Source of the DNA: Sulfitobacter sp. M39
GTDB lineage: Bacteria; Pseudomonadota; Alphaproteobacteria; Rhodobacterales; Rhodobacteraceae
Assembly (NCBI RefSeq): GCF_021735935.1
Contig: NZ_WMDZ01000001.1
Span: 682,001-746,000, forward strand
Direction: 5' to 3'
Length of the DNA stretch: 64,000 nucleotides
The position numbers and the translations under genes were made by a program. Below, piece by piece: positions 12,845 through 14,338 of this stretch (position 1 is the first letter of the stretch; each line of letters begins with the position of its first letter). The notes beneath the pieces were generated by a model, which was not told the DNA's origin, made no database searches, and was given only the letters and a program-made list of their open reading frames with translations.

Positions 12845-13660
12845 GTGCGCCGTTGGGTAGCCATCTCTATCATGTGCCTGACCGTTGCGACGGCCGGGCT
12901 TGCTCAGGATGCGCGGTTGCGCAGGCTGGACACGGGGGTGGATGCCGGCGCGTGGGAGGCCGTGGGCCGTCTGGATATCGGCGGTAAGGGGTTTTGCACC
13001 GGCGCGTTGATCGCGCCCCGTTTGGTTCTGACAGCGGCGCATTGTCTGTACGACAAGGACAGCAAGCAGCGCATTGATCATGGCGAGGTCGAATTTCTTG
13101 CCGGTTGGCGCAACGGGCGGGCGGGTGCCTATCGCAATGTGCGCCGTGCGGTGGTGCATCCCGATTATGTCTACGACGGCGTCGTATCCTCGGACCGTGT
13201 GCGCAACGATCTGGCCCTGCTCGAACTCGACCGGCCGATCCGCAATACCACGATCAAACCCTTCGACACCGCCCGTCGTCCGCGCCGCGGCGACCAGTTA
13301 GGGGTGGTGAGCTATGCCAAGGACCGGTCAGAGGCACCGTCCCTGCAAGAGGTCTGCAGCGTGCTGGCCCGCCAAGAAGGCGTGCTGGTGACCACATGCT
13401 CCGTCGATTTCGGGGCCAGTGGTGCGCCGATCTTTACCTTTGAAAACGGGGTGCCGCAGATTGTGTCTGTCGTATCCGCCAAGGCCCATGTCGAGGACAA
13501 GGAAGTGTCCCTTGGTACCGCGCTTGGTGCGCCGCTGGCCCGGCTTCAGGCGGATCTGGTGGCGGGCAAGGGTGTTTTCCAAGGCGGTGGTGTGGTCAGC
13601 AAGCGCATCACGTCAGAGGATCGCCGCCGCACCACCGGCGCGAAATTTGTCAAACCCTGA
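12845..13660 (+). CDS. Secreted trypsin-like serine protease
   Basis: The 271-residue protein has a signal peptide (about 1-20, cut after GLA) and a chymotrypsin-fold domain. The catalytic triad is visible as His66 (LTAAHC), Asp122 (NDLALLEL) and Ser192 in GASGAP, where most family members have GDSGGP. Cysteines at 51/67 and 171/185 could form two disulfides. It should act in the periplasm or outside the cell; the substrate is unknown. The start is GTG behind GTAGGAGCAATATCC. It lies 79 bp after glcF and may be read with it or alone. Confidence 0.85.
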   Translation: MRRWVAISIMCLTVATAGLAQDARLRRLDTGVDAGAWEAVGRLDIGGKGFCTGALIAPRLVLTAAHCLYDKDSKQRIDHGEVEFLAGWRNGRAGAYRNVRRAVVHPDYVYDGVVSSDRVRNDLALLELDRPIRNTTIKPFDTARRPRRGDQLGVVSYAKDRSEAPSLQEVCSVLARQEGVLVTTCSVDFGASGAPIFTFENGVPQIVSVVSAKAHVEDKEVSLGTALGAPLARLQADLVAGKGVFQGGGVVSKRITSEDRRRTTGAKFVKP

Positions 13661-13686
13661 CTTGTCATCAGGGGTGATTTTGTCCC

Positions 13687-13715
13687 CTTGAAACGCGATT
13701 TATCCATCCCCACAT
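13687..13715 (+). promoter_or_regulatory. RpoH (sigma32) heat-shock promoter
   Basis: CTTGAA (13687-13692) and CCCCACAT (13708-13715) are 15 bp apart, close to the sigma32 consensus (CTTGAA, 11-16 bp, CCCCATnT). It precedes the Hsp20 gene by about 100 bp, leaving a long structured leader. Confidence 0.7.
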
Positions 13716-13723
13716 GCATGTCA

Positions 13724-13816
13724 CCGGAACGCCTGTTGAGGGTTCCGGCAGACAACCCAGGGTCTGTCCATGATGGAAGGCCTGAATGATTATCGCTCAA
13801 ACGAGGATGAATACCT
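13724..13816 (+). promoter_or_regulatory. ROSE-like RNA thermometer in the hsp20 leader
   Basis: The leader can fold into three hairpins in series. The first pairs CCGGAAC (13724-13730) with GTTCCGG (13742-13748). The second pairs CAGAC (13749-13753) with GTCTG (13762-13766). The third pairs TCGCTC (13793-13798) with GAGGA (13803-13807), the Shine-Dalgarno sequence, leaving one unpaired G in the anti-SD strand, and extends downwards with A-U and G-U pairs. A UYGCU anti-SD with a bulged G facing AGGA is the hallmark of ROSE elements, known mainly before small heat-shock genes in rhizobia and enterobacteria. Melting would expose the site on heating. The fold is by eye only. Confidence 0.6.
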
Positions 13817-14287
13817 ATGCGTAGTTTTGATTTTGCACCGCTGCACCGTTCGACTGTCGGCTTTGACCAGATTGCCAATCTGATGGATCGCGTGATGGCC
13901 AACGACGCACCGCAGCCAAGCTATCCCCCTTACAACATCGAAAAACTGGACGATGATTCCTATCGTATCAGCATCGCCGTCGCCGGCTTTACCGAAGGCG
14001 ACCTGAGCGTTGAAGTCCGTGAAAAATCGCTGATCGTCTCGGCGCGCAAAGCTGATGAAGATACGGACAAGACCTATCTGCATCGTGGCATCGCGACCCG
14101 CGCGTTCGAACGCCGCTTCCATCTGGCGGATCACGTGCAAGTGACCGGCGCGGCCCATGCCGACGGTATGCTGCACATCGATCTGGAGCGTCAGGTGCCC
14201 GAAGCGCTGAAACCGCGCCAGATCCAGATCGCGCGTTCGACAAAGGCGATTGAAAAGGATGTGGTTGACGCGAACACCGTCAACTAA
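13817..14287 (+). CDS. Hsp20/alpha-crystallin small heat-shock protein
   Basis: This 156-residue protein is an IbpA-type small heat-shock protein, an ATP-independent chaperone that holds unfolding proteins. It starts MRSFDFAPLHRSTVGFDQIANLMD, the IbpA-like N terminus. The alpha-crystallin domain follows (PPYNIEKLDDDSYRISIAV at about 35-53, GDLSVEVREKSLIVSA near 60-75, and RGIATRAFERRFHLADHV near 94-111). RpoH promoter and leader thermometer imply double heat control, at transcription and translation. A strong terminator follows. Confidence 0.95.
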   Translation: MRSFDFAPLHRSTVGFDQIANLMDRVMANDAPQPSYPPYNIEKLDDDSYRISIAVAGFTEGDLSVEVREKSLIVSARKADEDTDKTYLHRGIATRAFERRFHLADHVQVTGAAHADGMLHIDLERQVPEALKPRQIQIARSTKAIEKDVVDANTVN

Positions 14288-14310: not shown

Positions 14311-14338
14311 GCCCGGTGCATTTGCGCCGGGCTTTTTT
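14311..14338 (+). terminator. Rho-independent terminator after hsp20
   Basis: A 9-bp stem (GCCCGGTGC at 14311-14319 with GCGCCGGGC at 14324-14332, one G-U pair) closes an ATTT loop and is followed by six T. Confidence 0.88.

Follow-up and report, generated by a model that had tools for sequence, protein, structure and literature searches.

A three-hairpin ROSE-like leader with a bulged G in each hairpin precedes the ibpA-type hsp20 gene of Sulfitobacter sp. M39

The hsp20 gene of the marine bacterium Sulfitobacter sp. M39 lies behind an RpoH-type promoter and a leader of about 95 nt, from the inferred transcript start to the start codon, in which three hairpins can be drawn. The locus raises the question of whether the gene is controlled by heat twice, in transcription by RpoH and in translation by an RNA thermometer of the ROSE type, as a sequence-only reading had proposed. 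We analysed this question in a window of 64,000 nt (the whole stretch of DNA under study, contig NZ_WMDZ01000001.1, positions 682,001 to 746,000), with the following features in window coordinates:

13687..13692, + strand: -35 element (CTTGAA) of a promoter of the RpoH (sigma-32) type, read from the sequence and conserved in orthologues
13708..13715, + strand: -10 element CCCCACAT, read from the sequence and conserved in orthologues
13724..13748, + strand: hairpin 1, 10 pairs, bulged G13731, from folding and the genus alignment, with five pairs changed on both sides
13760..13783, + strand: hairpin 2 (CUGUCC...GGAAGG), 10 pairs, bulged G13766, from the ROSE_2 alignment, folding and the genus alignment
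13790..13810, + strand: hairpin 3, the presumed thermosensor, bulged G13795, with the core AUCGCUC against GAGGAU (13792-13808)
13803..13807, + strand: Shine-Dalgarno sequence GAGGA, masked in hairpin 3, from sequence and folding
13817..14287, + strand: hsp20 gene of the ibpA type, 156 amino acids, Pfam HSP20 with E 4.1e-19
14311..14338, + strand: likely intrinsic terminator with a 9-pair GC-rich stem, the loop ATTT and six T, recognised by eye and absent from the pattern-scan list

The Pfam match upholds the assignment of the gene to the Hsp20 family. The best NCBIfam models were IbpA and IbpB, both under their cut-offs, and the protein is 50% identical to E. coli IbpA. We chose named orthologues by protein and kept the best 80 of 364 candidates, headed by Sulfitobacter litoralis (96%) and followed by further Sulfitobacter and by Roseobacter records; a plasmid search with the same protein returned 567 records, the best at 63%. 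Because the likely terminator follows directly downstream, hsp20 is probably monocistronic. Similar stems also stand 3′ of the gene in several relatives. A small terminator-like hairpin (13655-13673) lies where the upstream trypsin-like gene ends, immediately ahead of the promoter; about as many such hairpins are expected by chance.

The sigma-32 promoter consensus is CTTGAAA ... CCCAYAT. We scanned for this pattern with a spacer of 11-17 nt and a maximum score of 14, and the window reached 14/14, with 15 nt between CTTGAA and CCCCACAT. Scores of at least 12 were found in 78 of the 80 named orthologues, the other two scoring 10 and 11, and in 5 of 1600 shuffled stretches. The promoter is thus as the sequence-only reading had described it, and it is shared by nearly all of these relatives.

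At 37 °C, the stretch 13722-13819 has a minimum-energy fold that contains all three hairpins. Hairpin 1 begins 8 nt past the -10 element and therefore lies near the inferred transcript start. Hairpin 3 holds the Shine-Dalgarno sequence through the pairs U13793-A13807, C13794-G13806, C13796-G13805, U13797-A13804 and C13798-G13803 around the loop AAAC (13799-13802), leaving G13795 unpaired; two further outer pairs, formed in the window, occur in just 9/30 and 5/30 of the leaders from the genus. Across the first folding series, hairpin 3 was present at every temperature and in every stretch, and hairpin 2 was rearranged in some folds (stretch 13748-13823 at 15-20 °C, stretch 13723-13823 at 25 °C). 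The computed stabilities at 37 °C were -15.3, -10.0 and -5.2 kcal/mol for hairpins 1, 2 and 3, respectively, and the last value compares with -4.1 kcal/mol for the E. coli ibpA core and -3.8 kcal/mol for the majority form in the genus.

Folding energy did little to separate this leader from chance, with a z-score of -1.99 and 9 of 200 shuffles folding as well, so that the leader is only modestly better than random on this measure. The z-score would suit the view that a GC-rich leader simply pairs by chance, against which stand compensatory changes and a core that is invariant despite a varying loop length. We collected 30 leaders, the best 30 of 36 genomes of the genus (Sulfitobacter in the wide sense), and these align throughout. 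AUCGCUC and GAGGAU are invariant in 30/30, and the loop between them measures 4, 6 or 7 nt. RNAalifold returned the same three hairpins from these leaders, with 26 pairs of which 10 are compensatory, all of them in hairpins 1 and 2. Together with the minimum-energy fold, this bears out a leader of three hairpins whose last one sequesters the Shine-Dalgarno sequence with a bulged G. In shuffles that ignore relatedness, none of 500 scored as high on any of five measures; the covariation score was 0.286 and fell to at most 0.159 when partners were slid.

Because the six core pairs of the Shine-Dalgarno hairpin never vary inside the genus, no covariation is possible there. The compensatory changes sought in roseobacter leaders were accordingly found in hairpins 1 and 2 and not in the hairpin that the sequence-only reading had named. 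A broader alignment of 41 leaders combined the window with 29 further family members, 10 leaders of the class and E. coli; two of the 41 came from the training set of the search model described below, and the alignment was fitted to the structure, a procedure that favours covariation. Changes on both sides occurred in 24 of 28 pairs, and the score was 0.524 against 0.194 in shuffles, relatedness again being ignored, and at most 0.117 with partners slid. Hairpin 3 has two-sided changes in 5 of its 8 pairs, for the most part in the outer two. Among its inner pairs, only five cells are changed in this way, two of which belong to E. coli, and no change at all occurs in the central C-G and U-A across the 41 leaders. 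Conservation was thus decisive for the leader structure, where energy alone was weak. With covariation at both levels and a model match in all 80 named orthologues (below), we regard chance pairing as refuted and its probability as negligible.

The Rfam family ROSE_2 (RF01832) matched the window in a relaxed-threshold search with 41.2 bits and E 1.5e-7, under its gathering cut-off of 65, and no Rfam family reached its cut-off in the window. The alignment covers model positions 1-73 of 73 and both model hairpins, with the outermost model pair unformed; the model has pairs for hairpins 2 and 3 and does not include hairpin 1. As a positive control, the E. coli ibpA leader scored 100.4 bits. Rhizobial ROSE elements carry a bulged-G core over the Shine-Dalgarno sequence, a feature that the window has in common with them, and a search of the whole genome with the rhizobial model RF00435 found nothing at E <= 10, its control matching in Caulobacter vibrioides. 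The suggested Rfam check was therefore answered by halves, with ROSE_2 aligning from end to end under its cut-off and RF00435 not matching. Elsewhere, ROSE_2 was found at E <= 0.01 in 2 of 6 genus loci tested and at E <= 1 in 37 of 198 family genomes, in none of them at cut-off; Rfam ROSE models gave no match at E <= 0.05 in 14 class and second-hsp20 loci.

From the 30 genus leaders we made a covariance-type search model, R1. It matches the E. coli ibpA leader at E 2.8e-7, which, with the ROSE_2 alignment and the genus fold, substantiates a leader of the ROSE type. R1 matched 146 of the 198 family genomes at E <= 0.1, once in each. Of the 198, 196 have an Hsp20 match at 1e-10; two have none, and in several others the match is weak. 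From the 52 R1-negative genomes we took 20 leaders among the stronger Hsp20 matches listed, and all of them carry R1 (20/20, weakest E 0.0058). In the top 80 of 364 named orthologues, which comprise 13 training leaders and 67 from outside the training set, R1 occurs once each (80/80) and ends at start codon +6. Because of these counts in family genomes, in R1-negative leaders and in orthologues, a ROSE leader looks general for the ibpA-type genes of Rhodobacteraceae, a family of marine bacteria, as judged from sequence. Beyond the family, R1 occurs in 10 of 11 hsp20 leaders from other families of the class, the locus L073 giving no match. Whole-genome scans found it in at least 33 of 289 class genomes and at least 21 of 299 phylum genomes, own family members counted in; both are lower bounds because these scans apply stricter filters.

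Hairpin for hairpin, the leader resembles that of E. coli ibpA. Both have three hairpins in the same order, a second hairpin of nearly identical letters (CCUGUCC...GGAAGG), a UYGCU core with a bulged G over the Shine-Dalgarno sequence, the start ATGCGTA and, by eye in E. coli, a sigma-32-type promoter; they differ in the core of the Shine-Dalgarno hairpin, which is AUCGCUC/GAGGAU in the window and CUCGCUG/CAGGAG in E. coli. The short ROSE-like thermometers of Pseudomonas ibpA share the U(U/C)GCU Shine-Dalgarno hairpin, a stable upstream hairpin and the gene, but have two hairpins only (PMC3669281, partial text). In the B. japonicum ROSE element, the bulged G is G83 (PMC11342760, partial text). 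ROSE-G likewise has a bulged G opposite the Shine-Dalgarno sequence; its motif reads CUGCU, and the Shine-Dalgarno strand bears a further bulged G (PMC12857270, partial text), whereas the window has UCGCU and no bulge there, G13805 and G13806 both being paired. Nor does the strand opposite the Shine-Dalgarno sequence, AUCGCUC, contain the four consecutive U that define fourU elements. The leader does show what marks the ROSE-like class, namely a U(U/C)GCU strand imperfectly paired to the Shine-Dalgarno sequence with a bulged G (as defined in the accessible parts of PMC3669281 and PMC11342760) and a length of 60 to >100 nt, folded into two to four hairpins, before a small heat-shock gene (range from the accessible part of PMC10474464). 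Compensatory changes are present too; inside the genus they fall in hairpins 1 and 2, and the 41 leaders have them in all three hairpins, least of all in the inner pairs of hairpin 3.

A marine member of the Rhodobacteraceae with such an element had been held to deserve description. This was partly anticipated in 2011, when ROSE-like motifs in front of ibpA and hspD were noted for Nautella sp. R11 of the marine Roseobacter clade (PMC3230580, partial text). As in the window, these are small heat-shock genes of a marine roseobacter recognised by motif; the accessible part of that report gives the motif only, without sequence, structure, conservation or test. The kind of element is hence not new, and an ibpA-type ROSE-like leader is ordinary, widespread and largely expected, as well as well supported.

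The genome of Sulfitobacter sp. M39 has a second hsp20 gene (locus L062, G000:C1:2854900-2856000, - strand), with a CCCATATT-type -10 element and, by motif, a two-hairpin ROSE-like leader. In all 23 second hsp20 leaders examined in the genus, TGTCGCTT...AGGACG stands before the start codon, together with an upstream GCC...GGG strand pair and the CCCATATT-type -10 element. R1 matched none of three such loci (this gene and two orthologues), and Rfam gave no match in them either. On pattern, this second leader appears to be of the two-hairpin ROSE-like form and resembles the short Pseudomonas ibpA leaders (PMC3669281, partial text), which agrees with the joint note of ibpA and hspD for Nautella sp. 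R11 (PMC3230580, partial text).

Taken together, we are highly confident that the window contains an E. coli ibpA-like small heat-shock leader that combines RpoH-dependent transcription with a presumed translational thermometer. Heat would raise RpoH activity and thereby hsp20 transcription from 13687-13715. At growth temperature, the weak hairpin 3 would hide the Shine-Dalgarno sequence, as in the family mechanism, and on warming it would open around G13795 so that ribosomes could load. The more stable hairpins 1 and 2 presumably remain folded, guarding the 5′ end or guiding folding. Deletions of this sort are reported for other thermometers: in P. aeruginosa ibpA, induction fell to 1.4-fold once G39 of the Shine-Dalgarno hairpin was deleted (PMC3669281, partial text), and deletion of the bulged G44 in the Providencia stuartii oppF thermometer made induction notably lower (PMC11342760, partial text).

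Nearest-neighbour folding gave no opening of the Shine-Dalgarno sequence in the window between 20 and 42 °C, and the same calculation left that of the E. coli ibpA leader unpaired at 36% at 20 °C and 14% at 42 °C, which is the wrong direction. Because the calculation fails equally for E. coli ibpA, the flat result for the window is not contrary to a heat response, which we infer from the family. Alternatively, the hairpins could serve mRNA stability or block translation constitutively, with heat control left to RpoH alone; a hairpin that begins near the inferred 5′ end and a computed opening that stays slight up to 50 °C would fit such a role. We consider it improbable, given that the ROSE core is kept (the bulged G in 187/187 leaders, with C-G and U-A against the Shine-Dalgarno sequence) and that the ROSE-like ibpA leaders of Pseudomonas respond to temperature in experiments (PMC3669281, partial text).

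Although the thermometer is of a familiar kind, its leader carries a regularity that extends to the two upstream hairpins. We compared 187 distinct leaders from 204 rows, identical rows being counted once and thirty genus rows having trained R1. The bulge consists of a single G in 184 (hairpin 1), 182 (hairpin 2) and 187 (hairpin 3) of them; with both flanking pairs formed, these counts become 184/186, 176/176 and 187/187, respectively. The exceptions are model-found leaders outside the genus, four of which have no letters at hairpin 2. Because training rows favour a G at the bulges of fitted alignments, we counted the protein-selected leaders separately, and G occupies all three bulges in 86 of the 86 (99 minus 13 training leaders) outside the training set. 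The pairs next to the bulge of hairpin 2 vary, with U-A, C-G, U-G or G-C below it and U-A, C-G, G-C or A-U above it, so that conservation of the G does not depend on them. In E. coli ibpA, too, all three hairpins have a bulged G.

Some leaders appear to lack hairpin 2. Two of them (L250:1501-1569 and L259:1501-1569) align to hairpins 1 and 3 only, and beside the main R1 match in a genome from a different class of the phylum lies a further one (L254:974-1059, - strand), which lacks hairpin 2 and is perhaps an ibpB-like leader.

The bulged letter of hairpin 2 is in itself not new, because the Rfam drawing of ROSE_2 already leaves that G unpaired. Our literature search, to which subscription papers were mostly closed, returned no text remarking on bulged Gs beyond the Shine-Dalgarno hairpin, and as far as we found, the rule of one conserved G per hairpin is new. 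A decoy Shine-Dalgarno sequence in the 3′ strand of hairpin 2, which reads GGAGG in many relatives, was considered and set aside, as the strand drifts (GGACGG, GGCGGG) and the bulged G stays.

One candidate role comes from IbpA itself. The IbpAs of E. coli, Cedecea and Vibrio harveyi repress their own translation via the 5′ UTR, which requires R93, numbered R94 in Vibrio, and for the E. coli protein also an aromatic residue at position 34; both residues were noted as conserved in alphaproteobacterial IbpAs, and the authors suggested the same repression for alphaproteobacteria (all from the accessible part of PMC10474464). The window Hsp20 has Y36 and R95 at E. coli positions 34 and 93, and Y and R occur there in 80/80 named orthologues, which also have R followed by R or K at positions 97 and 98 (80/80) and K or R at position 83 (76/80). 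The leader might thus also, or even mainly, be a putative binding platform for Hsp20, with the three bulged-G hairpins as the recognition signal, a role that is compatible with a thermometer. We hold this to be possible at best: in its favour are the gammaproteobacterial precedent (PMC10474464, partial text), the two residues, and the G at all three bulges in 86/86 leaders outside the training set while the flanks of hairpin 2 vary. Against it, the accessible part of PMC10474464 gives no position for the site in the UTR, and some leaders lack hairpin 2. R93 and Y34 may also be conserved for reasons unconnected with repression; both occur in the second Hsp20 of this genome as well.

More speculatively still, the ibpA leader could be, instead of a single thermosensing hairpin aided by two others, a triplicated signal in which each hairpin offers an invariant bulged G in its 5′ strand. 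Oligomeric Hsp20 would read this signal and, as long as aggregates do not occupy it, repress its own translation, and the third copy would double as the thermometer. If this were true, the leader would be a sensor of temperature plus aggregation that spans alpha- and gammaproteobacteria, roseobacters included. With G13731 and G13766, the role of the stable upstream ROSE hairpins becomes a single-base question in which heat induction and self-repression are separable.

Overall, the additions made here are, as far as we found, the family-wide model R1 and the three-bulge rule. Read with the thermometer that we favour, the distribution of R1 indicates that translational heat control may be general for the ibpA-type genes of this marine family, while ROSE_2 reaches its cut-off in 0 of the 198 sampled genomes.
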